From contig JAODTK010002666.1 of the NCBI GenBank assembly GCA_026419785.1, forward strand, positions 62,001 through 126,000: a stretch of 64,000 bases of DNA, read 5' to 3'. Positions 17,384-59,777 of the stretch are shown piece after piece (position 1 is the stretch's first letter; every line of letters starts with the position of its first letter). Origin of the DNA: Sclerodactyla briareus. Taxonomy: Eukaryota; Echinodermata; Holothuroidea; Dendrochirotida; Sclerodactylidae. The notes below the pieces were generated by a model that worked only from the letters and a program-made list of their open reading frames with translations, had not been told where the DNA came from and made no database searches. The translations under genes were made by a program, and so were the position numbers.

Positions 17384-17390
17384 ACTTGCA
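17384..17390. repeat. Target-site duplication, left copy (ACTTGCA)
   Basis: Exact 7-bp ACTTGCA immediately left of the fold-back element, matching the copy at 18290-18296. Confidence 0.8.
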
Positions 17391-18289
17391 GGGGTAACGT
17401 CTATAGACCCCCGTCTCATTGGTCCCCCGTCTCATTAGACCCCCGTCTCATTGGTCCCCCGTCTCATTGGTCCCCCCGTCCATCATTCCGTCTCATTGGT
17501 CCCCCGTCTCATTGGTCCCCCATCTCATTAGACCCCCGTCTCATTGGTCCCCCGTCTCATTGGTCCCCCCCTTCATTATTCCGTCTCATTGGTCCCCCGT
17601 CTCATTGGTCCCCCCGTCCATCATTCCGTCTCATTGGTCCCCCATCTCATTAGACCCCCGTCTAATTGGTCCCTCGTCTCAATAGTCCGTTGTGGCATAT
17701 ACAAATCGTGATAAATTGGCCTACTATGTATAAATGTTCACACAAACGCCTCCAGTAAAAGATAATAATTCATTACCAAATCCTCATTCATTCTCTAAAA
17801 AAAACTTTTCAGAGCTATATGAAGAGTTAAGTCTGGTTGACAAGATCAACTCGACTCCGGCATGAATCCCTGCCTTTGGATGTTCTGATATTTTAAATCC
17901 ATGTTAGTACATTTCGTGACGGTCGGTCTATTATTTAGGCATACGAGGTTTGGAGGAGGGCACCCCCCCCCCTAGTTCGGGCAAAATCCGTTTGATCTAT
18001 TTCCCTGCATGTCTCGGGGACCAATGGACGGAATAGTGAACGGGGAGACCAATGATACGAATAATAACGGGGGGACCAATGAACGGGACCATGACGATGA
18101 TGGACGGGTGCCAATGAGACGGGGACCATGAACGATAGTACGGGGGTCGGGGACCAATGAGACGGGGGACAATGAGAACGGAATGATGGACGACGGGACC
18201 ATGAGACGGGGGACCAATGAGATTTGTGGTGTCAATAAGGGGACCAATGAGACGGGGGACCATAGACGGGGGACTATAGGGCGGACCCC
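17391..18289. mobile_element. Fold-back (Galileo-like) non-autonomous element, 899 bp
   Basis: The left end reads GGGGTAACGTCTATAG and the inverse of the right end reads GGGGTCCGCCCTATAG. Each arm is an array of the 17-mer CCCGTCTCATTGGTCCC, forward at 17405-17695 and inverted (GGGACCAATGAGACGGG) at about 18013-18275. There is a higher-order insert, CCGTCCATCATTCCGTCTC, about every 105 bp. The centre, about 17700-18000, is unrelated AT-richer DNA with no transposase. A perfect 7-bp duplication, ACTTGCA, flanks both ends. Long arms made of tandem subrepeats define fold-back elements, and a 7-bp duplication is what the P-superfamily element Galileo makes, so Galileo-like is an inference from structure alone. 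The left array is much cleaner than the right. Confidence 0.8.
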
Positions 18290-18296
18290 ACTTGCA
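18290..18296. repeat. Target-site duplication, right copy (ACTTGCA)
   Basis: Exact match to 17384-17390, directly after the terminal ACCCC of the element. Confidence 0.8.
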
Positions 18297-21976: not shown

Positions 21977-23644
21977 TGCGAAAATTTTACACGTTTGACA
22001 TTCCATCGAAAAGTCATGCCCATCTTCGGTGCTACTAGATTCCCTGTTCGGTATAAACTTATCTTCACCTGATTTTCTTGTCAGATCTTTGCACGAATTT
22101 GTGGCGTTCCCTGGCCGAATCTTCGACGGCTATTTTATGGGGTTTCTACCGCACCGTGTGTCTGGCCCCTTAGTAGTGCACCGTGCACGCACCCAGCTTT
22201 CACAAGTGTTCGCACCCTAATTGATTGCTGAATACTCACAATAGTCACAGGACCCGCCAGGTGTTAGACCCCCTGTCGCCTCAACCTCCTTAAGCCTTCC
22301 CTTGAAAACAACAACAGTTTAAACCTCTGGGTATTCCATCGAAAATCCAGGCAATATTTGTACTTAGACTAATTTTCTTCACTTGAGTTTTGAATCATTC
22401 ATGCCTTTTTGACACGCAATTTGTGGCGTTCCCTGGCCGCATTTCGTGCGCACGTGTGTCCTCATAGCATGTGCACCGTGCCACCGGCCTTTCAACAGTG
22501 GTTCGCACCATGACTCCAAAAAAGAATAAAAACTCACAGATCCCGCCAGTGTTTAGACATACCGCCGTCGCCTCAACCCCCCCTCACATCGAGATAGCGA
22601 TTTCTATGTTTGTTTGTTTGTTTATTTGACTATTAACTGGTCCCCTAGCAGGAATCGACAACGTTCAATGAAGGAGCAACACACCAAGCTGGTAAAGCAG
22701 TCTTATGCAAATGATAAGGATTGAAGGAGAAAGAAAGGGGGGGGGGGGAAATACTTTTTTTTCTCTATCTTTCTATTTAACTATCTATCTGTCTATTTCG
22801 CTGACACTGTATCCGACATATCCAACATTCAAACCGTGTTTAAACAAATGCATAAGTTACCTAAATAATCATTTGATTGATTCGTTTGCGCCATTCGAAT
22901 TTGCGCGCTTCGTTCGCGGTTATTGCATGAGCCGGTAGTGTTCAGACATATGATGTGCCTTGTGCAGACATATGATGTTCCTTAACAAACAGTGCCTGAA
23001 ATATACTCTTGGTTGTTGGGTTCCCCTTCATCCCTATCGTTGCCTAAGACGGCTTTACCAGCTCGGTGTGTTGTTTCTCAATTCATTGGACGCAGTCGAT
23101 TTCCTGCTAGGGAACCAGTTAGTAAATGAACATACAAATCGCTTTCTTGAGGTGAAGGTGGTTGAGGCATCAAAAATGTGGCCAGGGAACGCCACAAATT
23201 GCGTTGTCAAAAAGACATGATTCAAAATTCAATTGAAGAAAAGGCCACGGTCCAGAAATCGCCTGAATTTTCGATGGAATGCGCCCCTAAGTGTAAACTT
23301 TTTGGTTTTTGAAGGAAGAAGGTTGAGGCGACGGGGGTAAGTCTAACACCTGGCGGGACCTGTGCTTTTTTGCAGGATATGGTCTATTTGCAAACTTAAA
23401 TAGAGTTTCAGCAAGCCATTTATGGTGCGACCACTTCTTGAAAGTTGGGTGCGTGTACGGTGCACATACTGAGGGGACACGGTGCGGGTGGGGACCCCTC
23501 AAAATAGCCGTCGAACATTCGGCCAGGTGACGCCACGAATTCGTGCAAAGACATGATTAAAAATTCAGGTGAAGATCCGTTTTTAATATCCCCAAGCCAT
23601 TGCCTGACTTTTCAATGGAATGTCCAAGAGCGCAAAATTTTCGC
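21977..23644. mobile_element. Large composite fold-back element
   Basis: The left arm holds two tandem units, about 21977-22300 and 22310-22590. Each contains CATTCCATCGAAAA, TTTGTGGCGTTCCCTGGCCG, GTGCACCGTG, CCCGCCAG.TGTTAGAC and GTCGCCTCAACC. The right arm holds the same two units in reverse complement, about 23160-23325 and 23330-23644. Inner shorter arms also match in inverted orientation: actggtcccctagcaggaa near 22640 and ttcctgctagggaaccagt near 23100, plus the ctggtaaagc blocks. The spacer is about 22740-23010. Arms are thus 600-750 bp with moderate divergence. There is no transposase, and no clear target duplication was found. Confidence 0.75.
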
Positions 23645-25827: not shown

Positions 25828-28085
25828 AGCTGAAAATTCAGTTAATCCAGTTGCACTGGACCCAATTGGTCCAGTTTAACTAGACCAACTGGTCCAGTTC
25901 AACTGGACTGCTCTGAATTTGGTCCAAGTCCAGTTGGGTCCAGTTCACTGGACATTTCAACTGGACCCAACCGGACTTTCTAACTGGACTTTCCAATTAC
26001 GGGACTTCCGTTCGCCTCTGAATGGTAGCCTAGTTCATGTCTGCATGCAGAAATGACTTTTCATACCATTTGCTTCCAAGATAAAGCGAGGCTGAAGTGC
26101 ACAGAATGTGAGATTCATGAGGCACTCAGGAATAGAATGGGTGTTAATCTAGATGGCAGAACCACAATATTACTGTGTGTACCATTAAGTATTAGGCGAC
26201 TGCTTAGATTTAATTGTATTAGATACCCATGTTTGAGATGATATTGTTGAAAGTAAACTCTCTTCTAACCTACTTGCATGTGTTATTGACACATGTACTG
26301 ACTACTAATTACAAAACAAAATCTTATGAAAACATTATATACCATTTCCATGTTCAACAAAATACGTTAAAGCCAGGATGATATCCCAACAAACACAAAA
26401 CGTTTTAAAACGTTTTCAAAACAGCTCTAAATATGTTTCGTTCGGCCATGTTTCCTGAAAAACTTTTTTTGTTGAGTAACATGTAATGTTTGCAAAAACT
26501 TTATGAAACGTTTTAAAAACTTTTGAGAGAAAATGTTTTATAACATTTTTGTTTTATTTGATATTTATGGTAACATCGGCACCAATAGAAGTCCCCCCGA
26601 GCGATATCTAACAAACTCCGACATCACTAGCTACCTAACCTGTTTGTAGTAACGACTGTTTTGTCGCTAAAGGTTTATGGGCAATTTTAAAAACAAATTT
26701 TTTAATTTGAAAGTTTCCAAAGTTTTATTAAACGTTTTGTGAAACGTTTCAAAAACCTTTTCCTAACATCTATGTTACATCAACAAAAAAACATTTTAAA
26801 AACATTTGTTTGAAAATGTTTTTGAAACGTTGCTTGTGTTTGTTAATAGAGGCAAATGAGATTAGTTATAGGACCTAACTGGACCATCCAACTGGACTTC
26901 TCGGACTAGTTTAAACTGGAACTTTTCTGGACCAGTTTTCAACTGGACTTTACTGGACCCAGTTCCACTGACTTCTCTGGACCAGTTCAACTGGACTTCT
27001 CTGGACCTCCAACCCCGCCGGACTTCTCTGGAACGAGTTCAACTGACTATACGGACTATTCAACTGACTTCTCTGTACCAGTTTAACAGGACTTCTCTGG
27101 ACTGGTTCAAACTGGGACTTCTCTGGACAGTTTTTTTTCAACTAGATCTCCTCGGACCAGTTCCAACTGGACTATACCGGAAGAGTTTCCTACTGGCCGT
27201 TACTGGACCAGTCATCTACTGGACTTTTACAGACTGGTTTAAAAATATTACAGGACGCATTAAACTTACTCCCTTTAGTACCAGCTCATTTTCATTCATA
27301 TCACTGCACCGTTCAACAAGACTACTAGACCGGTTTGACAGTTTCAACATCACAGAATGCATTTGGACAGTTCCACTAACGAATTATGGGTGCCGGGTAA
27401 CAGGGCAAATGCTCTCCACCCCCTCCTCTTCTTCTCTTATTCCCCACAGTTAGTTTTCTCCTAAAATGGACCATCCCGGACACTGACGGACTAGGTTTAG
27501 TTCTTCCGGACTACTGAAGCAGTTCCACAGGACTACCGACGAGATCACAGGATTACCGGTACCATTCAATGGGAACATTAATTAGATCATTCAGCCATAC
27601 TAGTGCTTGACCATTCGAACTGACATTACTGACCAAGCAGCTTAAGTAACCTGAATCAGCTTATCAACTGTGTCCAAAATGCAGCCTGTGAGTTCGCCGA
27701 ACTGTGGAATTAAAGGCCATATTATAAGCTCCCTCAGCGGTGCAAAATTATGGAAGGTCCTATTAATAGGGACTAGTTCCCAGCTAGGTCAATTAGCGAT
27801 TCTATTGAGTCCAGTTTGGAACTGTATTTCCAGCTGGGACTGTCCCAGAGTGAAACCAATTGAGAGTCCATTTGGTCCCAGTTGGAATCCGTTAGATCCC
27901 TTGAGCCCGGATTAGTTCCATATTAATTAGGTCCACTTCAGTCCTGATATCTTTAATACTCCGCACTGGTTTTCAAATAAGTCCAGTTGAACCAACTGGT
28001 TCCCTTGAATCCAGTTGGGTTCCCTTGGGTCCGCTGCAGTTCAGTCCATTACAAAATTTCACTGGAACACAACTGAATTTCAGCT
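25828..28085. mobile_element. CCAGTT/AACTGG palindromic-repeat element
   Basis: The ends are inverted: AGCTGAAAATTCAGTT at the left and AACTGAATTTCAGCT at the right. Between them, at 25845-26020, 26870-27250 and 27770-28070, the self-complementary motif TCCAGTTCAACTGGA and its variants (CTGGACTTCTCTGGACCAG, CCAACTGGTCCAG) occurs dozens of times. The repeats start as a dense block, are interrupted by unique DNA and by a nested MITE, and thin out to the right. No transposase frame was found. Superfamily is unknown; the target duplication could not be read. Confidence 0.6.
26387..26844. mobile_element. MITE with CAACAAACACAAAACGTTTT termini, nested
   Basis: The left end reads CAACAAACACAAAACGTTTT, and the inverse of the right end reads AACAAACACAAGCAACGTTT. 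The interior is AT-rich with repeated AAACGTTTTAAAAAC and AAAACGTTTTGTGAAACG motifs in both orientations. It lies inside the CCAGTT-rich element, so it inserted later. A CCC precedes the left end without a matching GGG at the right, and the target duplication is unclear. Confidence 0.7.
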
Positions 28086-38847: not shown

Positions 38848-38971
38848 AAAAAAATTTGTCATGATCGGCTTCACGGTTTGTGAGAAATCCTGCTAACGAG
38901 AAAGGTGACATACACACGACACACAGACACCAAGTGACCACTAAGTCTCTTCCTGAATTTCATTCAGGCGA

Positions 38972-39312
38972 GACAAAAAAATGATGGTTGCCATGGGAAC
39001 AAATGACCTACTACAAGAAAAATTTCTGTTGTTTCACGGATTGTGTTCATTCCTCATATCATTGGGTAGTCATTTACAGCCTCAAAATAGTCAATGACAG
39101 AACATGCCACACTGTTCCTCTCCAAATACACTGGATTCAGGCCAGACAAAAAAATGATGGTTGCCATGGGAACAAATGACCTACTACAAGAAAAATTTCT
39201 GTTGTTTCACTGATTGTGTTCATTCCTCATATCATTGGGTAGTCATTTACAGCCTCAAAATAGTCAATGACAAAACATGCCACACTGTTCCTCTCCAAAT
39301 ACACTGATTCCA
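38972..39312. repeat. Recent 173-bp tandem duplication
   Basis: Unit 1 is 38972-39144 and unit 2 is 39145-39312; both begin GACAAAAAAATGATGG and are preceded by TTCAGGC. Only about two to three base differences are visible (for example cacgg/cactg and gacag/gacaa), much less than in the other duplications of the window. Units include AGTCATTTACAGCCTC and ACATGCCACACTGTTCC. Confidence 0.9.
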
Positions 39313-45877: not shown

Positions 45878-45967
45878 AATGTTACAGAGCTCCACCACCC
45901 CTTGATGTATCGGGGGCCACTGATGTTAACTCATCTTGAAACTTCCACTTTCCACTTATTTTGACAG

Positions 45968-46515
45968 GAGACGGTAAACTCTTTGGGATCGACTTCTCCC
46001 CTCCGATGATGACGGAAGCTATGAGGCTCACGGCGCATCCCATCCACTCCGGTAAAGCCCAGCTCACGATTGGGGATGTCGCGGATCTCCCGTACAGGGA
46101 TGCCAGCATCGACATCGTGTTCCACTGCAACTGCTATTACTTTTGGGAGGATCCCTCAAAGGTCCTACAGGGCATCCATAGGGTTCTGAAGCCACGAGGT
46201 AGGATGTTAACTGGTCTGCCTCTTTCCGGCCTGGAGAGAGCCGAGAGGAATGGTGTCCTCATGAGAGGAATGTTTAATGTGGACCAGTACCTGGAGCGAC
46301 TCAGGTCGAACAACTTCAAGGCTGAAATGAAGGAATTCCCCATCGAGGGTTCTGATGAAAAGTATGGTATCGTTACTGCCACAAGAGTTAGACCATGTAC
46401 CAGTTTAACCATATATTATCATTTCCATATTAGTAACATCCATACATCTGTTATACATGTTGACTTGGTTGGATTTGACATAGCTGATTCCGTTTCCAAT
46501 ATATCCCGTCCTTAA
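45968..46515 (+). CDS. SAM-dependent methyltransferase, 3' exon (Methyltransf_11, YdaC-like)
   Basis: This encodes the C-terminal two thirds of a class I methyltransferase; the substrate is unknown. A good acceptor (ACTTATTTTGACAG, polypyrimidine before it) gives a phase-1 start at 45968. The reading then runs GDGKLFGIDFSPPM (end of the SAM loop and the acidic residue after strand 2), GDVADLPYRDASIDIVF (post-II block), YYFWEDP, LQGIHRVLKPRGRML (the conserved RVLKPGG helix/strand block) and YGIVTATR (last strand). Order and spacing match the Methyltransf_11 family, and resemblance to YdaC-like proteins is from memory. The 5' exon carrying the GxGxG loop was not found upstream; a hAT-like MITE occupies the adjoining intron. 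The frame ends at 46513-46515, about 40 codons past the last conserved strand. A donor near 46387 is possible instead, so the true 3' end is uncertain. Confidence 0.75.
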
Positions 46516-46590: not shown

Positions 46591-48639
46591 GCAACCAGGC
46601 CTGGGCCCAGCCTGCTCCCCCCCCCCCCCCTACTCCCTGACGTACCCACGAACTGCACCAACTACGAGCTGTGAGGGCGTTCTGTTGGTCAACCCCACCC
46701 ATCAGATCATGTTCACACAGGAGATGGTGGGCAGGATTTTCTGCTGGCAGATCTTGCAATCTCTGGCAGCTATCCTTTACCATCCCCGCCATATATCCCA
46801 GAGTATCCTGGCATTGGATACTTAATCCTACCACAGTGACCAAGGATGCATCAAAGTGAGGTAGTCAAGATGGTATCCATTGCTATCCCAAGCCCAACAA
46901 TGAGTTTCTAAAGCCTCACTAGGTTATAGCAAAACTAGAAGCACAACAGAACTAAAACACAGAGTTTTGGTCCTTTTGCTCAGATATCGTGACTGCCACA
47001 CACTAGTAGTAAATGACACAGTTGTTCAAAGCATTTGGATGTCGCAAATGGGAGCGAAGCAGTCTTTACAGCCTGGTGTCATTCCTGTTGTCCACCCACA
47101 ATAAATACGGTGGTTATAACTTGATTGACCGACTTCTGACTGCCTAAATACCTGGGTAAGAGTACTTCACCTGCCTGTGAGGCCACAGCTATACCCATCA
47201 GTGGTACCAAACTGGTATCCCAAGGGCTTTGCAGAGGAAGTTGATAACTGAGGTATCCCTCTTTCAGAACCCCTCTCTGTACAAGAACCCCTGTCCCTCC
47301 ACTCTATTGTTGCATTGCATGGAATGCATGCGGAAAAATGTTAAATCACTTGAAGTGCATACAAGTGGGTTCTCGAACCGCTTGTCCCGCGCCTATTTCA
47401 TGATCGGAGGTTTTCATCTTGTTACAGTATTCATGAAGTTTCAATCACCTTGTTCTGATGGGTCCGGCTATCGAGGGGATTTTCTTGTGTCTGCCTTATA
47501 AGAAAACCAACTGCAGTTGTGGATTGCCACACTATGAGATGACTTACACTAGCTCATTTTGGGCACATATGTACTATTTTCTCAAATTTTTCATTTTCTC
47601 TCACTCAATTCCTTGTCTTGCCTGAACAAAGTTGAGAAAGGGACTCAGTGATCACTTTGTCATGTGTATGTGTGTGTGTAATGTATGTATGTTGTCCCAC
47701 TTTCTCCCCTCGTTAGCAATATTTCTCTGGAACTGTAAGGGCTGATTTTGATGAAGTTTCGTATGTAGTACATGGGTTGGGTGAACATGATCTGATCAGT
47801 TTACGGATGAACCAAAGTTCTATGTCATCTAATTGCATAATTTATGCAAAATTTCAAAGTTCGTCTGATTTTCCTGAAACTTGGTGAATATGGTCTACCT
47901 TCAGATCTAAAACTTTTTAACATAGATTTGGCGTCAATGGAGGTCATTCAAGCTGTCGAATTTGCCTAATTCATGCAAATCTTGAACTTAGTTGGATTTT
48001 CATGAAACCTGTGGGTGATTTGACCTCCAGTTCCGACCTTTATTATCATGGATTCAGGGTCACTGGAGGTCATTCAACATTCTAATTTGCATAAATTATG
48101 CATAATTTCCAAAGTTTCTTTCTGAATATTCACATTGAACTTATGGCTTACCTTTACTCTCACATTTTTAATTTAGGCCCTGCAGGTTCATCGGAGGTCA
48201 TAGTGTGTCTATTTTCATAATTATTTATGTTCCAAATTCCCAAATGTTTTGTGTTCGATTATTATGGAGCTCGATTAGTATGGTCTACCTTTCGTCCCCA
48301 AACATTTTTAACATTGACTCGAGTTACTGGGGATTATTCATGTGTAGACTTTGCTTCATTTCATGCAATTTCAAGTTTGCTGGATTCCTATGAAATATTC
48401 AAATGAGAAAATTGGTCAATGGAAGTTGAATATTGTGTCTAAGTTGCATGATTAGTCATATTTCCACAAAACGTATACTCCTATGGTAGTACGTGGTCAA
48501 TAATTAGTCCTTATGAATTTGGAATTGGTCACTGATTAGTAAAAAAGTAAATGCTATGTATACAAAAATCTGAAAGCGCATCACATGGAATGCCTCGTAA
48601 TTGTTTGCATGGTGACTAATAGAAGAAACCACTGATCGT
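46591..48639. repeat. 2.05-kb tandem duplication, copy 1
   Basis: Direct repeat of 48640-50708. It begins at GCAACCAGGCCTGGGCCCAG, includes a poly-C run, an interspersed segment with GAGAAAGGGACTC and TGTATGTG repeats, and the ~125-bp tandem family at 47820-48480. A MGGVDQQN motif can be read on the minus strand near 46690-46710, but it stands alone and supports no gene. The boundary heptamer GCAACCA occurs at the start, the junction and the end of the pair. Confidence 0.9.
47820..48480. repeat. ~125-bp tandem family, locus 3
   Basis: About five diverged units starting near 47824, 47958, 48082, 48211 and 48340. The consensus reads roughly TTTGCATAATTCATGCAAAA, then GGATTTTCATGAAAC.TGGTG, GGTCTACCTT, TTTTTAACATTGA and GGAGGTCATTCA. 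Confidence 0.75.
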
Positions 48640-50708
48640 GCAACCAGGCCTGGGCCCAGCCTTCTCCCACCCCCCCCCCCTACGCCTACGTCCCCACGGA
48701 CGCTTCACAACTAGAGCTTTGAGGGAGCGTCTGTTGGTCAACCCCAAACCCATCAATCATGTTTCACACAGGATATGGTGGGCATGATATTTCTTGCTGG
48801 CAGGATCGCAATCTGGCAGCTTCCTTTACCATCCCCGCATAGATCCCGAGTTCCTGGCTTGGAGTTACTTTAATCCTACCAACATTGACCAAGGATGCAT
48901 CAAAAGTGAGGTAGTCAAGATGGTATCCATTGCTATCGCACCCAACATGATTTCTAAGCCACACTAGTTTATAGCCAAAGCTAGAAGCACAACAGAACTA
49001 AAACACAGAGTTTTGGTCCCTTTTGCTCGATATCTTGACGTTGCCACACACTATAGTAAATGACACAGTTTTTCAAAAAGCATTGGATTGCAAAATGGGA
49101 GCGAAGCAGAGTTCTTACAGCCCGGGTGTCATTCCTGTTGTCACCCCACACGAAATACGGTGGTTATAACATTAGATTGACCGACTTCTGACTGCCTACA
49201 TACCTGGGTAAGAGTACTTTCAACCTGCCTTGAGGCACAGCTAATAACCCATCCTTGGTACAAAACTGGTATCCAAGGGCTTTGCAGAGGAAGTTGATAA
49301 TGAGGTCTCCCTCTTTCAAACCCCTCTCTGTAACAAGAACCCCTGTCCCCTCCACTCTAATTGTTGGCATTGCATGGAATGCATGCGGAAAAATGTTAAA
49401 TCACCTTGAAGTGCATACAAGTTGGTCTCGAACCGCTTGTTCCCCGCGCCTATTTCATGATCGGAGGTTTCATCTTGTTACAAGTATTCATGAATGTTTC
49501 ATCCCTTTTCGATGGGTCGGCTTCGAGGGATTTTCTTGTGGCGTGCCTTATAGAAAACCACTCTGCAGTTGTGGATTGCCAACACTGAGATATGACTTAC
49601 TAGCTCTTTGTGGGCAAACATATGTACTATTTTCTCAAATTTGTCATTTCCTTCTCTCAGCAATTCTGTCTTGGCCTGAACAAATTTGAGAAAGGGACTC
49701 ATTGCTCACTTTGTCATGTGTATGTGGTGTGTGTAGGTGTTGTGTACCCACTGTCTCGTTAGCAAGATTTCTCTGGAAACGGTAAGGCTGATTTTGATGA
49801 AGTTCTATGAGTACATAGGTTGGGTGACATGATCTGATCAGTTTTAACGGGAGGAACCAAACGTGCTATTGCATCAATTTTGATAATTTTAAGCAAAATT
49901 TAAAAGTTTTCGTCTGATTTTTTTTTTTCCTGAAACTTGGTGACTAATGGTCTACCTTCATTCTAAAACTTTTTAATAACATAGATTTTTGCGTCCAATG
50001 GAGGTCATTCAAGCTGGTCGAATTTCATAATTCATGCAAAATCTTGACTTAGTTGGATTTTCATGAAACCTTGTGGGTATGATTGACCCTCTTTCGACCT
50101 TATTATCATGGATTCAGGGTCACTATGGAGGTCATTGCAACATGTGTAATATGCATACATTAGCATATTTAAAGATTTTTTCTGGATATTCATTGAACTT
50201 ATGGGCTTACCTTATCCCTCTCACCATTTTTATTAGGCTGCAGTCTCGGCGGTCTTCAGTTTGTCTATTTTGCATAATTTTTCCATTCCAAAGTTGTTCG
50301 ATTATTATGAGCCGAGTTAGTATGGTCCCTAACCTTCAATCCCCAAACCATTTACATTGACTCGAGTTTACTGGGGGTATATTCCATGTGTATAATTGCT
50401 TCATTCATGCAATGTTCAAGGTTTTGCTGGATTCCTATGAAATATTCCAATGAAAATATTGGTCAATGGAAGTTGAATTTGTGTGGCGGGGGAGGATCTA
50501 AATTTGCATGAGTCAGTCATATTCCCACACAACTATACTCGCTATTGTGACGTGGTCAATACTTCGTCCTTAAGAATTTGAATTGGTCACTGATTTAGTA
50601 AAAAAGTAATGCTATGTAGCAAAAAGCTGAAAGCAACACATGGGAATCCTCGTAATTGTTTTGCATGGGGAACGTAATATAATAAACGCACTGATCGTCG
50701 TGCAACCA
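48640..50708. repeat. 2.05-kb tandem duplication, copy 2
   Basis: Collinear with copy 1 throughout. The differences I could read (for example across 49255-49640 against 47215-47600) are overwhelmingly one-base gains or losses, many in homopolymers, with few substitutions. It includes the second copy of the ~125-bp family at about 49870-50480. Open frames differ between the copies for that reason and are not genes. Confidence 0.9.
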
Positions 50709-51239: not shown

Positions 51240-54200
51240 ATATGCTACTCGAGTGGCTGGCATCTTAACAGCGTACTCGTTGGCCCCGCCCATCGCCCTT
51301 TTCTTTTTGCCAGACTATTCGTCTGCAACGAGTGTTTTTGGCCTGGAAAAAGTTTTCAAAAATTTTCACCAAGGAAGTGGTTACGGTTTGGTTAACCGTT
51401 TTTTGGAGATGGAGACCGAAGCTTACTCATCAGCTTCGTGGAGAAGCAATTTTTGAAAGAGATTGTTCGTTTTCGCGATGTTTGGGTCGTTTTTGTTTCT
51501 CTCTTTGTCGCGGTCGCGCGTGTAAGTGCGTTTCTAACAGCCTAGGCTGCGCATAACGTAGGGAGTGTGTGAGTGTACCTCCCGTTGCCTGACAGTCACT
51601 TGGTGTGGTTCACACTTTGGGGTGTCTCTCACCTCTGCGGAGTTCGCTGTTGGGCTTTGGCGTTGTTTTTGGGTTTTTGGGTCGTATGTTGGTCAGTAAC
51701 CGGATTCCCTACCCCCAACCCCTAACCCACCCCTCCCTCGGGTCGCCCTACTCCACCAGTCCCGTTCCGGGGGGTCCCCGTCCCCCTTCTCCCGTCCCCT
51801 TTCCGGGCCCGGGGTGGTGGTTTGTTGCTGTCGCGTGTTGCGCGTGGGAAGTTTTTTTCGCGTGGCGGCTGCGACGAAGGGAGAGAGCGAGAGAGACGGA
51901 GAGATAGATAGTGGAGGTTTTAATAGGATTCGGCTGTTCACATCCTGCGGGAGGAGCATAAGAGACAGGGAGACCATCGGTTTGCGGCAGACACCCGCTG
52001 CTCAGCAAGCAGTGGACTCCGTTCCGGAACGACTTTCGGCCCGGGCAAGGTTGTTCCACGCAGGCAGTTACGACCCATCCTTGGGAAGCCGCCTGACTGT
52101 GTACCGTATCGCGGGACTCCCCATGGTCTGACCCGTGGCCTGGGAGTTCCGCTAGGTGCAGGGTGGTTTCATTCACGGTCCGAACACCCTCAGTTTTCAT
52201 CGGGGAGACCGCCGAAACCCTGCAGTGCATCGGGGAGACAGCCGAAAGAAGCCAAGGGAGCCAAGGTAGGCAGGTTCAAACCTGCGTGGGGACTAGCTCC
52301 CTCCTGGCGGTTCTCGGGGTTGACTCAGGTGATCGACCATGCAGTGTCCGAGTTCACCTCCGCCGGGAAAGAAACCTGGGATCGTCACAACGCGGCTCTG
52401 GTTGGGCGGTGCGGTCCCGAAAACCCCAGGCGCAAATTGGATCGCCAGTCCGGCGAAAACCGGCCGAACCGACCGTCACGATCGGGTGGCTCCGGACCGG
52501 TCGGATCCAGGGAGGGGCATCAGTAGGGCGTCCCGGCTGCTCCGGCCGGTCCGAAGCGACCAGCCGGTTGCCGGGGGCCCCCCAAACAAAAACCGTGGTC
52601 GGATACCGAGGTCCGGACTCTTGAGAGGGTCTACGGCTCGCGGGCGCCGGCGGAAGCGGGGCCCGCTTCGGCCGACTGAACCTGACCACCGGATCTCGGG
52701 GGCTCTGGTGGGTCTGATACCGAGGTCCGGACTCCGATGAGAAAAAAAAGTCTACGGCTCGGGCGTCGGGGGGGGCCGGCGGAGCACCCGGCCGGCTTTT
52801 CCCGGCCGAACCGACCACCGGATCCGGGGGCCTGGTTGGTCGGACACCGAACCCAGGTCCGGACCCCCGATGGGTCGACGGCTCGGTTAGGGTCGCCGGC
52901 GGGGGCGCCGGGTGCCAAACAACTCACAAGGGAACCCGTGGTGCTCCCGGTGGGTTGACTTCCGAGTCCGGAATCCAGGGGGGGTCGACGGCTCGTTTAG
53001 AGGCGGCCGGCAGAGCGCCGGTCTGCTCGGACCGGCCGAACTGACCATTCTGGCGCATGAGGCTCCGGTGGTGGTAGAAACCGATATTTCCCGGAACTCC
53101 GGGATAGGGGGGTCGACGGCTCGTTTAGGGCGCGGCGGAGCGCCCTTTCGGCTTTTGCCCGGCCTGAACAAGCCACTGGAGCAGGAGCTCCGGTGGTGTC
53201 GGACACCAAAGTCCGGACTCCGAGGTTGTCGACTGCTCGGTTCGGGCGCCTGCGGAGCGCCCGGTCGGCTACACACCGCTGACAAGCCTCCGGAGCAGGT
53301 GGCTCCGGTGACCCAGACACCGAATCCGTACCCTGAGCAGGGCGCCGGCGGGGCGCCAGATCGCTTCGTGCCGGCCGAACCGCCACCGCGACGCGGCGGT
53401 CCTGACACCGACGTCGGTCTGTCGTAGAGGGGTCCAACTCGGGTTGGGGGCGGGCCTGTTGGCAGAGAGCCGGCCGGTGGAGCAGACTCAGCATTCCAGA
53501 GAAGGTTTGTGCACGGGGCGGCTGGGTCAGCTGGGGGGCGCGAGGACGCCAGGCTGGCTTCAAAGGGACGGGTCGGATCTAGGACCCAAAATACAGGCAT
53601 TGCAGGGCTATCGCGGTCGGACTCGGTAGACTGGGGCAACCACCGAGGGCCAGGACTTCCGTTGGCCCGGTAGGGTCGGGCACCTAGATACGGACCCTGT
53701 CATAAACGGCCGACGCCTGAGGTTGGTCCGGCGAATGAGAGCGCCAGTTGTTTTTCCATCCTGCCGAACCGACCGTCGCTCCGGTTCGAATCCTGGGGCG
53801 CTTGGTCCGCTTCGGTCGCGAGGCGCCGAGGCATCGGCTGGGGGCCCGGCGCCTGAGAGCCCAGACCGTAGTTTTTTTTTCAGCCTACGCATATCGATTA
53901 ATTACCTGGGGCACGGCATAACGCAAAATACTGCCGAATGGCAAAGAAATCGAAACTGAGACCAACGCGAGCTCACAAACGTCGTGCGGGGGGCTTCGCC
54001 ACGGAAGCGGCATCTCGAGTGCCTGTGAAGGCCAGATTTCGAGACACCCACGGGGCGCTCGGCGGTTGGCTCCGGTCTTCCGGCTGGCCGAACCACCCAC
54101 TAGGAGCCGGGCTCCGGTGTTTTTACGACCCCGAGGTCAGACTCCTGAGATGACCACGCTCGTTTGGGTTTGGCGCAGGAGATCCGTCGGTTGCTCCAAC

Positions 54201-57200
54201 TGGCCGAACCGACGGCATCCCAGACAGAGTTTGCCCGTTTGGCCCGTCCGTCACCGGTGCGGGGGGTTCCGCCGGGGCAAGCCCATTCCGCCAGCTCGGG
54301 GAGGAGCCGGTGGGGTTCTTCTAACCGCACGAACCCCCGGAGGTGGAGGGGCGTCCGGCCCAGAAGCTACTGTTTACTATCCCTCGCAGCACGAAGATAA
54401 CGCGACAAGGTTTTGCGACCCGGGCGACCAGTTATTTGTTTGGGTCTCTTCGCCAACCGCCTCCCGCTCCCTCAGGACCCAGTTTTTGAGTGCCCTGAAA
54501 ACCAGTTTCTGTGGCATTCTCGGTTCCCTTGGAGCAGGTGTCTCGCAACCGGCGTCACCCGTCCCTGTAGATGCCGCCTTTGTTTCTGGTCGTTCACGTC
54601 GTCCTCGAGACCCAGGGTTTTTCTCGGGCTCCGATCGGGGGTTGTTTCCTTGGCACGGACATTCCCGTTGACGCTCCGGAATGGCGGGGTCGCCACATCC
54701 AACGTGGACTAGGGCTCCACAGAGCCGTCCGTCGGAACATCCCACCCGCCGTACCGTCCCGCCTATCCTCCTTGTGCCGTGCGGTAACAACCACCCTGTT
54801 GGGGCCTGATCGATGGCGAGGGGTTTCCCCCGCGCTTCGATTCCATCGCCCGGGGGCCTCCACAAAGAGGGATGTCTCGAAAACCCTCTGAGGCGGCTAA
54901 AATGAACTCAGGGACCTCGACTCGTCGGTTCGCACATGTTACGCATGTGCTTACCGGCTCTTCCGAGGAAATCGTGGTTCCGGCTTTTCCACGGCGTAGA
55001 AGGAGTGCAGGCTCTCAGGCGGGACAACCCGGAAATGGTGATCCGGAGGGGCCACGGGCGCGTGGCGCGACATCGGTCCTCGAGTCGGTGTCATAACCTA
55101 CGGAGGGCCATAAAGCTGCTTCGTGCGGACTTGCCCTCCTGGGCGTAGACCCCTTTTTGTGGACGCTTCAATGGGCCGCCCGGCAAGTCGATAACCGGCA
55201 GGAGGCCGGCATCCTGTCCATCGCCAGCGCCTCCGACCTCGACCTCTAAGCTGAAGGGGAGGCCAACGACGTAGTCGACAAGCGGTTCTTTTATACCCCC
55301 CCCCGCATCATCGTTTTCTTCTCGCGGAAGCCCACCGCGGGAGGGTATCGCGCCCGTCCTCCAAGTAATTCCGGGTGGGGTCCCTTGCTACCGCCATCCC
55401 CGATCCTTCCTCTCGAGAGAGGGCGGGGCGACGTCGAGAGACCTATGGGACGCTCATCTGCCCACGCACCCGCCCTTCAGGGCCGATTCCTAGCGTTCCG
55501 CTCAGGGGCAGGACTACCGCTTGTGGTCCTTTCCATTCGGCCTCGCCGACGACGGCCCGACTCTTCACCTGGGTCCGCAGCCCCATCTATTCTACGCTTT
55601 CTGTGCGGCAGGAGGGTCATCACGGGTCGTCCGCTCACAACCGACGATTGGCCCGGGTGGCCGCCCCGTCGAAAGCGGGGCCGATTGCTCATACCGCGGA
55701 TCTCAGCGCGTCTCGACGTTGCCGCGGCTGCACGTTCATCCTGCCCTCCGAGTCCAACCCGCCAGGGCCGGGACTCGGCCCCTTGGTTCCTCCGTCCGGG
55801 GCGGCCACTATGAGCGATTTCTCGAATCTTTCCGCACGCTCTCGTCGCCGCTGCGGGCGCAGTCTTTGTGGTCGATCCGCCCAAGCCTATCCCTCTTCGT
55901 GGGGTTCTCGGGCTCTTCCTGTCCTCATGGACGGAGCCACATAGGTGTCTGCGGTGAACAGAGCCACATGGGTGGCCGCGGTATAGCGCTTTTGCGACTT
56001 TTTTCCCCTGTCCCATTGCGACAGTGACACAGACGTGTCGCTCTCGGGTGAGGGGCCAGCTTAGGACGGAACGGCCCCCCTTTGGTCGTATCAGCGGCAA
56101 GGCACGCAGTGAACTTCCCCGATCGCCGAACCGTTCGTCTGATCTCTTCGTGTCGTCCTACATGCGCGACTTTTCCAAGACCCTGCGCCTTCCGGATCTT
56201 TTTCCGGCTCGGGCAGATGGGTTGGCTGTGGTACCACGGCACGTGCGCCCTGTGTCTCTTCTGCCGGGAGACGACGAGCCAACAGTGCTTCCGAACAAGC
56301 GGCGTTCTGGACCGCGGTTTTGGCGTACGTCGCAACATCCTCGGGTGTCACCCCGTGTTTGCCCCGGTAGGCCGGCGATGTCATTCGTCTTGGCCCTCGT
56401 CTCCAGGGGAAAGCAGGCTCGACGATCGGCTTCCGTTCCGCCCTTGCGGCGATACATCGCGGTTTTTCTCCGGATGGTCCTCATGGTCGAGGAGGTCACT
56501 GACAGCCAGCTCCTAGGCGACGTTAGCGAGCGTCTCCTGCCGCTCTTTTTGGCTCCGCATGTTTCCTCGCCACATCCTCGAAACGCCCTTAGAGCGCTGG
56601 AGTCCTCAACCTCAACGGCCGTTTTGTTGGGTGGCAGTGTCCTCCGCGGAAAGCACGCAGGAGCCTTCTTGAGGCGCTTTACTATAAGCCGTCCTTCCCT
56701 GTCACGGTCCAGACGGGATCCGTTCCCTCTCGGGTCCGGCTTTTCTTGGCAAAGAGTCAGTCGTTGGCGTTCGCGCCGGAGATTGATCTCCCCTCGATCG
56801 GTCGCTCTCGTGAAAAACCGAGGACAACCTGGTGCCTGTCCAGCCATGGCTTGGTTTCGAGGGGACTCGTTTGAATGCCGTCACCTGCGTCAATGTTGGC
56901 TTCCCGCATCCGCCGCCAGCGTGGCTTCTTCGAGCCCGGCTAGACCGAAGTCGTGAGGAAAGCGTCGGCGTGGTGGAAACTCTTAACAACACCTTTGTCG
57001 CGTGCTATGTGACGGACGCGGTGTACAAGGAAAGGGCATTTGCCATAGCGGCTCTGCAAACTCCACTACTCAGCATCCGCCTGCACTGCACGCGACGGCA
57101 CGGGACCACCACCAAGCGCCCTGTGCTAGACTGTTCATTGTCGATAATGGGTCAGTAGAATAGTGAAAATGATTCTCCCACAAACAGTAACGGGGTTTGT

Positions 57201-57480
57201 GATCGGAGACTACTATACTTCACCCCTTTATACGACCGCCCACCATCCATCCCCTCTCTCCGGGCCGTCGCATGCGGTCCCACACAACATTCGCTTCCGG
57301 GTAAAAACCCCTTCGAGAATCAGGACGCCTCAAGCCTGGAAAAAGAGAAGGGCGATGGAGTGCCAACCCTGTACTATTAAAATGCCAGCACTCTGTCCAG
57401 CAAAAATAGTGAGGGTGCATGGTCGATACGGGTACAGTATTCGTATTCTCAACAGATTCACAAACCCGTCCTGTTTTGTA
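51240..57480 (+). mobile_element. Fossil retroelement, probably DIRS-like (tyrosine-recombinase type)
   Basis: This is a GC-rich island with dense long overlapping frames in AT-rich surroundings. Near 55515-55610 the plus strand shows short RT signatures: YRLWSFPFGLA, the PFGL block shared by LTR-type and DIRS reverse transcriptases, and FTWVRSPI. The flavour is closer to DIRS than to Gypsy, but that is judged by eye. Upstream are a GC-rich leader (51300-52260) and an internal ~115-bp tandem array (52490-54170); downstream is a long GC-rich segment (56020-56960). Near 57160-57480 are short inverted and direct repeats (for example ACAAACCCGT and its inverse), compatible with the terminal/internal repeats known in DIRS. 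The element is broken, with many breaks. I could not confirm a recombinase domain or both ends. It looks old, or else poorly assembled. Confidence 0.45.
52490..54170. repeat. GC-rich ~115-bp tandem array inside the retroelement
   Basis: About a dozen diverged units. Each carries, in order, GTCGACGGCTCG, GGCGCCGGCGGAGCGCCC, CGGCCGAACCGACCA, GGCTCCGGTGG and ACACCGA.GTCCGGACTCC. Unit starts (CGGCTCG) lie near 52632, 52754, 52877, 52989, 53117 and 53233, giving spacings of 112-123 bp; later units decay towards 54170. Confidence 0.8.
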
Positions 57481-57819
57481 GATTACTGATTCCTTACTAA
57501 CTGTCGCAACTGCAATTGGGCCTACTCTTCTGTCTTGGGGGGTGGAAACGCATATCGAACAACATTTTTAATACTTATAACTTGCACTTCATTTGAAATA
57601 GTTTTTAATATTCATATTGGACATAATTCTATAAAAATCAAGCATTAAGGTGTCATAAGATTGCACAACAAAAACTCCACTACATATTTTTTTTTAACCA
57701 GGAAGGGTGTTGTCTTTTTTCTCAACCCGCCTCCTCCTACTCTGTAACACACAATGGTTTATTTTTCCTGATTAATTCTAGAATTCCTCACATGCTAAGC
57801 GAGAACCCATCAACAAGCA
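55903..57819. repeat. 1.9-kb tandem duplication, copy 1
   Basis: Starts at GGTTCTCGGGCTCTTCC, covers the 3' part of the retroelement and about 330 bp of AT-rich flank, and joins copy 2 at 57820. Because the flank is included, the duplication is not an element terminal repeat. Confidence 0.85.
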
Positions 57820-59777
57820 GGCTCGGGCTCTTCGTCACTGATGACGGAGCCACATAGGTGCGGCGGTGGACAGAGCCACCGGGGTGGCTGCGGTTGTCAG
57901 CTTTTTTGCGACTCCCTTCCGGCGACAGTGCCCACAACGGGTGCTCTCGGGTAGGCCAGCTGGGTATGACGACGGCCCCCTTTGGGCGGATCAGCGGCAA
58001 GGGCACGCATTGAACGGTCCCGATCTACGACCGTTCTCGATCTCTTCGCCTCACTCTTCGTGGGCGGCTTACAATGCGCGACTTCAGACACTCTGCTTCC
58101 GGATCCTTTCCCGCTCGGGCAGATGGTTAGCCTGTGGTACCACGGCATTTGCGCCCTGTGTCTCTTGTGCGGGGAGACGAGCCAACAATGCTTCCGAACA
58201 AGCGGGCGTTTCCGGACCGGTTTGCGGACGTCGGCAACATCCTCGGTGTCACCACCTCCGTGGTTGCCTCGGTAGGGGCCGGCGAGTTCATTCGTCCTTG
58301 GGCCCTCTTCTCCCGGGGAAGCAGGGTCGACGATCCGGGCGCCTTCCGTTTCCGCCCTTCGGCGATACATCGCGGTTTTTTTCTCCCGGATGGTCCTCAT
58401 GGTCGGAAGTAGGTCATGACACCAGCTCTTACGAAACGTTAGCGAGCGTCTCCGCCGCTCTTTTTGGCTCCGCAAAGTTTCCCCCTCGCCACATCCGCGA
58501 AACGCCTTACGATCGCTGAGCCTCCTCAACCTCAACGCCGTTTTGTTGGGGGTGGCCGTGGCCTCCCGAGGGGGTCTGCGTTGCGGAGGAGCTTTCTTGA
58601 GGCGCTTAACTCCGACTACCGTCCTTCCCTGGCACGGTCCAGACGGGATCCGTTCCCTCTCGGGTCCGGCTTTTCTTGGCAAATAGTCAGTCGGTGGCGT
58701 TCGCACCGGAGATTGATCTCCTCCCCGCTAATCGGTTCTTTCTCGGGAAAACCCAAGACAAGCACTGGTGCCTTCAGGAGCCATGGGCTTGGTTATCGAG
58801 GGGACGCGTTTTGATCCGTCACGGCGGTCAATTTGGCTGCCCCGCATCCCCCGCCGGCAGCGTGGCTTCTCGAGCCCGGCTAGACAGAAGTTCGTGAGGA
58901 AAGCGGGCGGTGTGGAAGACTCTGACCACCTTTGTCGCGGTGCTATGGGTCCGACGCGGTGTACAAGGAAGGGCAGTTGCCTAGCGGCTCTGCAACCTCC
59001 ACCTCCGACTTACTCCATCAGCCTCCTGCCAACGGCGTCGACGCGAACGGCACGTCCCCACCACCCAGCGCCCTGTGCTAGACTGGTGCATGGTCGATGA
59101 GGAGTAAGTAGTAGTAGTAAATAGATTCCTACAAAACAGTACGGTGTTTGTGAATCTGTGGACACGAAATACTTACCCGTATCGACAGTCCCACCCATCC
59201 ATCCTCTCTCTCGGGCCGTCGCAGGCGTCCACACATTCTCTTCCGGGTAAACCCTCGAGAACTGCAGGACGTCCTAGCCTGGAAAAAAGAGAAGGGCGAT
59301 GGGGTGGCCAACCCGGTACTAGGTAAAATGCCAGACCCCCCCACCCCCCCCCCCCCCCCCCCCCCCAGGACCACTCGGTAGGCATCATTGAGGGTGCCAT
59401 GGTCGATAAGGGGTAAGTATCTAGTATAACAGATTCACAAACCCGTAATGTTTTGTAGTTACTGATTACTTTCGCAACTGCACTTGGGCCTACTGCATTC
59501 TGTCTTGGGGGTTGGAAAAAGCAGATCGGACACATTTTTAGACTTTATAATTGCACTTCATTTGAATAGGTGTAATATCATATGGAATAATTTATGAAAA
59601 TCATCATATAAGGTGTCATAATATTGCACTCACTGAAATATTTTTTTAACAAAGGAAAAGGGTGTTGTCTTTTCTCACCCCCTCCTCCTACTCTGTACAC
59701 ACAATGGTGTATTTTCCTGATTAAAATTCTAGAATTCTCACATGCTGAAGCTATTAACCCACACTCAGCAGGGTTCT
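57820..59777. repeat. 1.9-kb tandem duplication, copy 2
   Basis: Collinear with copy 1 (offset about 1915 bp), ending at GGGTTCTTTC. GGTTCT stands at both outer breakpoints and in shortened form at the junction. In this copy the inverted pair around 59130-59186 and 59401-59458 (CTACAAAAC.GTACGG..TTTGTGAATCTG and its inverse) is clearest. A run of 23 C lies at 59344-59366. Copies differ largely by one-base indels, as in the other 2-kb pair. Confidence 0.85.

Follow-up and report, generated by a model that had tools for sequence, protein, structure and literature searches.

Within the window, by which we mean the whole 64-kb stretch of DNA analyzed here, two mirror-image arrays of a short unit face each other across a non-repeated middle, and the question is what kind of element this is and which transposase would have moved it. 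Its inverted arms, its common ends, the common order of unit variants in the two arms and a target-site duplication of 7 or 8 bp can all be read directly from the letters. We consider it highly probable that this is a non-autonomous cut-and-paste DNA transposon of the fold-back type, ~0.9 kb long and moved in the manner proposed below. Fold-back elements are already known, and this one adds a further example to that class. A sequence-only reading of the same DNA had proposed a fold-back element with mirror-image arrays at this place, and alignment confirmed both its coordinates and the inverted arms.

Anatomy of the fold-back element, in window positions
Feature	Position	Strand	Remark
Whole fold-back element including target-site duplications	17384-18296		~0.9 kb
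Left target-site duplication ACTTGCA	17384..17390	+	8-bp reading ACTTGCAG runs to 17391
Left terminal segment GGGGTAACGTCTATAGA, not part of the array	17391..17407	+	
Left array of 16-bp units CCCCCGTCTCATTGGT, plus 13-bp and CCATCATT-type variants	17408..17688	+	
Central non-repeated stretch between the arrays	17689..18015	none	Aligned arms stop at 17690 and 18004
Right array, left-array unit types in similar order	18016..18268	-	
Right terminal segment, reverse complement of GGGGTCCGCCCTATAGTCCCC	18269..18289	-	
Right target-site duplication ACTTGCA	18290..18296	+	8-bp reading ACTTGCAG runs to 18297

We found long inverted arms with tandem repeats around a middle, which is the layout of a fold-back transposon: the arms (17391-17690, 300 bp, and 18004-18289, 286 bp) enclose 313 bp of unique DNA. 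Global alignment of one arm with the inverse of the other gave 238 matches, 24 substitutions and 32 gap runs, and the local arm-arm score was 253, compared to a maximum of 32 among random window pairs (n = 300). Folded as single-stranded DNA, the element formed a long hairpin at -251 kcal/mol (mean of shuffled sequences -127, n = 20). Tandem Repeats Finder assigned the left array a period of 16 bp, together with a higher-order period of 93 bp, such that the arrays of the sequence-only reading are present but their unit is 16 bp rather than 17 bp long. The element ends in GGGGTAACGTCTATAG on the left and, reverse-complemented, in GGGGTCCGCCCTATAG on the right. These ends follow the common pattern GGGGT-N5-CTATAG and agree at 16 of the outermost 22 positions, which bears out the matching termini (GGGGT..CTATAG) that had been described.

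The element occurs once in the 64-kb window, and this lone copy, with neither an empty site nor a transposase found for it, weighs against the transposon reading. A search of the window with the 22-bp end (up to 6 mismatches) returned the right end as the sole other copy, and the 16-bp unit had no match outside the element in the window at up to 2 mismatches. No coding match was detected in the central stretch, and the six longest open reading frames (ORFs) overlapping the element, which were those included in the scan (six listed ORFs of 40-62 aa were left out), had no Pfam family at E 0.01. Exact two-unit patterns of the array had 0 matches in viral contigs and 0 in prokaryote genome contigs. 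A looser spaced unit pattern matched 1 viral and 31 prokaryote stretches, which we judged to be unrelated: an array was present in 0 of these 32 loci, and none had more than 3 matches to the unit at up to 3 mismatches, the maximum being reached in one locus (L005) at a spacing of 18 bp.

The heptamer ACTTGCA is exact at both borders, and the target-site duplication at the ends of a fold-back transposon is seen here as ACTTGCA(G). A G follows the heptamer at each border, such that ACTTGCAG begins at 17384 and at 18290 and the length of the duplication can be read as either 7 or 8 bp; the exact 7-bp duplication claimed earlier thus holds as an exact ACTTGCA at both ends, but its length is not fixed at 7, since 8 fits too. 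Ungapped pairing of the ends (GGGGT-N5-CTATAG) favors 7 bp, with the difference between the two lengths hanging on that of one G run. Among random placements of a 900-bp interval, a direct repeat of at least 7 bp within 3 nt of both ends was obtained in 955 of 200,000 (0.5%), and at exact borders fixed by matching ends about 4^-7 is expected by arithmetic. A hAT reading, with CAGGGGT as the left end and an 8-bp duplication, was rejected because the flanks it would need, GTGACTTG and CAGAGACG, mismatch by eye.

For an element of this build, a DDE-type transposase encoded elsewhere in the genome would bind the 16-bp units, with many sites per arm, and would then pair both ends and excise the element. 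Insertion through a staggered cut of 7 or 8 bp, followed by fill-in, would yield the target duplication. Array length may change in both directions through unequal exchange, and the order of units would be kept alike by common descent or by exchange between the arms. Transposase binding to the 16-bp units is what we infer by analogy; in Galileo, footprinting and binding tests show that the THAP domain of the transposase binds sites within the repetitive arms (PMC3688188).

The arms are not equally preserved. With five unit types used to parse both arrays alike, the 281 bp of the left array resolved into 18 full units that carry 7 substitutions and no indel, while 24 bases were substituted, 20 deleted and 5 inserted in the 253 bp of the right array. 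The contrast between a clean left and an eroded right array that had been remarked on is thus present in the given sequence, and we put about equal weight on uncorrected sequencing error and on true decay as its cause. If decay is real, to which we give an even chance, the right arm is truly less homogenized or more decayed and the left array was recently re-homogenized by unequal exchange, which is compatible with the transposon reading. The placement of 19 of the 23 inter-arm gaps on the right arm and the absence of any indel along the left array agree with decay, as does the richness in short gaps of old dispersed repeats in the window, which an indel-rich genome would give; against it, the ratio of gaps to substitutions was 0.85-0.91 in the arms and up to 1.75 in several other pairs, which would fit uncorrected long reads. 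Such ratios are high for ordinary divergence. Nanopore reads of inverted duplicates are also described as showing miscalled or missed bases after the junction (PMC7229812), such that one arm would come out worse.

How far gaps are peculiar to the arms was assessed across repeat pairs of the window. In a first comparison of 8 chosen pairs, gaps of 1-2 bp were counted per 100 aligned bp: 8.5 in the arms, 8.0 and 7.7 in the long repeats at 46.6/48.6 kb and 55.9/57.8 kb, 3.0-5.7 in four less similar pairs, and 0 in the tandem at 39 kb. The pattern in these pairs, that only the most similar repeats are gap-rich, failed in a fuller comparison of 20 of the 26 repeat pairs (the 6 left out were alternative alignments within arrays). 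Here the density of short gaps (1-2 bp, per 100 bp) was 7.8 in the arms, 7.2-11.2 in 9 of the 19 other pairs and 0-5.7 in the remaining 10, with several older dispersed pairs as gap-rich as the arms (8.6-11.2 per 100 bp). Because several older pairs are equally gap-rich, we no longer hold an artefact to be probable and give it about an even chance; short gaps throughout the window would be expected from noisy sequencing and from an indel-rich genome alike.

A tandem duplication of ~2.05 kb at 46591-50708 has copies that differ by 96 substitutions and 168 gaps, 156 of them of 1-2 bp, and the excess of gaps may be uncorrected long-read error. A piece related to this duplication lies at ~25.0-25.2 kb. 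Three-way polarization of the 46.6/48.6-kb repeat against this relative, over ~150 bp, assigned 7 inserted and 2 deleted unique columns to the 49.9-kb copy and 2 inserted and 2 deleted to the 47.9-kb copy, a span too short to decide. A GC-rich block at 52000-59761 (54-66% per 2 kb, compared to 35-48% elsewhere) holds a repeat of ~1.9 kb, at 55907-57809 and 57822-59761, that is full of short gaps. In contrast to the gap-rich repeats, a 173-bp tandem duplication at 38962-39310 is almost clean.

Overall, the window has the look of repeat-rich animal DNA, and motifs resembling its own occur in marine invertebrates. An Rfam search of the window returned nothing at gathering scores. A second element with long inverted repeats, of other sequence, occupies 21978-23644; its arms (21978-22559 and 23041-23644) align inverted, ATTCCATCGAAAA-like motifs recur inside it, and no convincing target duplication was found for it. 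At 25846-27132, two blocks of partly self-complementary arrays with a 23-24-bp unit (e.g., CTGGACCAGTTCAACTGGACTTCT) are separated by ~0.9 kb rich in AAACGTTTT words, which is possibly another fold-back-like element.

Coding capacity was assessed on stop-to-stop ORFs of at least 60 aa, of which there are 347 in the window; the 264 with a start outside 51.7-59.6 kb include 185 that are at least 68 aa long. The Pfam scan covered 158 of these 185 (148 + 10, with the six longest ORFs that overlap the element among the 10) and left out the other 27, together with ORFs of 60-67 aa and those starting in 51.7-59.6 kb; ten ORFs, largely overlapping the 158, were also scanned singly. One scanned ORF only had a convincing family, a methyltransferase domain (Methyltransf_11, E 8e-16, at 45940-46512), and this ORF is probably a gene or an exon of the host. 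Chance was taken to explain the weak Vp20_capsid and DUF4381 matches, as well as the sub-threshold ones of a poly-T-derived ORF. Neither a P nor a THAP match was found in the 158 of 185 window ORFs of at least 68 aa outside the GC-rich block, and the 158 scanned ORFs likewise gave no FLYWCH or MULE match.

The sequence-only reading had placed the element in the P/Galileo group, on which the target motif, the palindrome and the ends all disagree. For a Galileo-like fold-back of the P superfamily, the mover would be a transposase with THAP plus RNase-H-like domains that leaves 7-bp duplications, and we regard this as unlikely. P elements generally begin with CA and have a duplication of 8 bp. 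No P-like terminal sequence (CA...) was found here, where the element ends in GGGGT. The duplication can be read as 7 bp, as in most Galileo copies of D. willistoni (PMC4168063), and Galileo arms are described as long, with internal repeats that carry extra THAP sites (PMC3688188), but an 8-bp duplication fits as well. The Galileo target is given as a 15-bp palindrome with the consensus GTANTAC (PMC4168063). On neither strand does ACTTGCA agree with any of the 6 fixed positions of that consensus, and of the 7 position pairs in the 15-bp target CGTG-ACTTGCA-GAGA only 1 is complementary, such that this target is not palindromic (both compared by hand at a single site). The GGGGT ends are also unlike the zebrafish Pdre2 end CATACCTGTCAAC, with its CATACC start; THAP9 genes, according to the same source, occur from sea urchins to humans (PMC10983969). 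Membership of the P/Galileo group is therefore not supported, because the match to GTANTAC is 0 of 6, the target is non-palindromic, the ends are unlike zebrafish P ends, and P or THAP matches are absent from the scanned ORFs.

Galileo, a P-superfamily element of Drosophila, as described in PMC3688188, PMC3573991 and PMC4168063, resembles the present element in its long arms with internal repeats and its mostly 7-bp duplications and differs from it in arms of 0.5-1.2 kb, the GTANTAC motif, the 15-bp palindromic target and the THAP transposase, none of which was seen at the element. Long terminal inverted repeats (TIRs) are described as a trait of different superfamilies (PMC3688188), and fold-back arms occur in several superfamilies; such arms together with a 7-bp duplication do not identify P/Galileo. 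More doubtful still is the reading that the P superfamily has a fold-back lineage beyond Drosophila, with Mutator-style arrays of 16-bp binding sites acquired while the 7-bp duplication was kept; if true, fold-back arms would have evolved convergently in an animal with no earlier description of such a case.

We also weighed whether the arms are two independent satellite arrays, inverted by coincidence and with no transposon involved. Each arm is indeed an array of a simple short unit, but the order of unit variants common to the arms scored 208.5, above the maximum of 191 (mean 141.3) obtained when the 21 pieces into which the left array was cut were shuffled (n = 1000, 0 reaching the observed score), which points to one ancestral arm or to exchange between the arms and not to two independent satellites. 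The non-array ends match at 16 of 22 positions, the target duplication sits exactly at these matched ends, and the unit goes without a match (up to 2 mismatches) elsewhere in the 64 kb, making coincidence very improbable. Independent satellites without shared termini were what the sequence-only reading had itself named as a finding that would overturn it; the termini match, and unit order is common to the arms. Equally improbable is a long-read fold-back chimera with the second, inverted arm as a sequencing artefact: such artefacts are described (PMC12870357), but arms that do not merge and instead flank unique DNA with sharp ends, a duplication at the borders, and outer flanks that differ from each other are not what a chimera would be expected to leave.

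A fold-back transposon thus remains the preferred reading, and the element is a clear anatomical example of the short-unit kind. It also carries two cautions: a 7-bp duplication plus fold-back arms is not diagnostic of P/Galileo, and uneven 'erosion' between inverted arms is not necessarily biological. Should copies of the family turn up across the genome, the common unit order would let the upkeep of arm likeness be tested.

Among superfamilies, our first choice for the source of the transposase is a Mutator-like (or sea-urchin-TU-like) one, tentatively and at somewhat less than an even chance, while the P superfamily is an improbable source. In Mutator-like elements of the Muta1/Tm1 type, arms exceed 100 bp and carry subterminal tandem repeats that are short, and the ~300-bp arms of 16-bp units seen here agree with this. 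Against a Mutator-like source, a 7-bp duplication would be short compared to 8-10 bp; the 8-bp reading fits that range, and ungapped end pairing favors 7. A terminal palindrome as in Muta1 was considered and rejected: GTCTATAGAC is a perfect palindrome confined to the left end, and hairpins of the 33-bp ends were no better than shuffles (z 0.05 and 0.39), such that no Muta1-like palindrome was clearly seen at the ends.

In the purple sea urchin, TU elements have long inverted arms with outer domains of tandem units of ~15 bp, and their duplication measures 8 bp. By this description, as opposed to a comparison of sequences, they come near the present element in form. Sea urchin is named among the organisms with fold-backs in the paper on Tetris (PMC4079207), and a literature search for fold-back elements of echinoderms, molluscs or amphioxus gave no related title among the matches listed. 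Tetris, from Drosophila virilis, is likewise a non-coding fold-back with tandem repeats in its arms, although its units are 220 bp long and its duplications 8-10 bp (PMC4079207).

Closer in unit length are the Mutator-type fold-backs. In mosquitoes (Aedes), subterminal tandem repeats of 9-15 bp are described in 10 of 12 Mutator-like families with long TIRs (PMC5225508). Muta1 of Aedes aegypti (Mutator-like, type-2 Foldback) has 12-bp units with a 3-4-bp spacer, compared to 16 bp here, in long inverted arms whose short terminal segment lies beyond the array, and its derivatives, with variable unit number and non-coding, unrelated middles, are likened to the present element; compared by description, Muta1 differs in its 8-9-bp duplications, 145-bp arms and 10-bp imperfect terminal palindrome (PMC5225508). 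Tm1, a Mutator/Phantom fold-back of root-knot nematodes whose Tm1/Phantom transposase combines FLYWCH and MULE domains, has arms of 13-15-bp tandem units, mostly 14, asymmetric terminal motifs and short non-autonomous copies, and differs in its mostly 9-bp duplications, its other unit and its terminal motifs CGGTTAA / CCTACCC (PMC3169594). Judged by such analogies, the short-unit Mutator-type fold-backs Muta1 and Tm1 look more like the present element than Galileo does.
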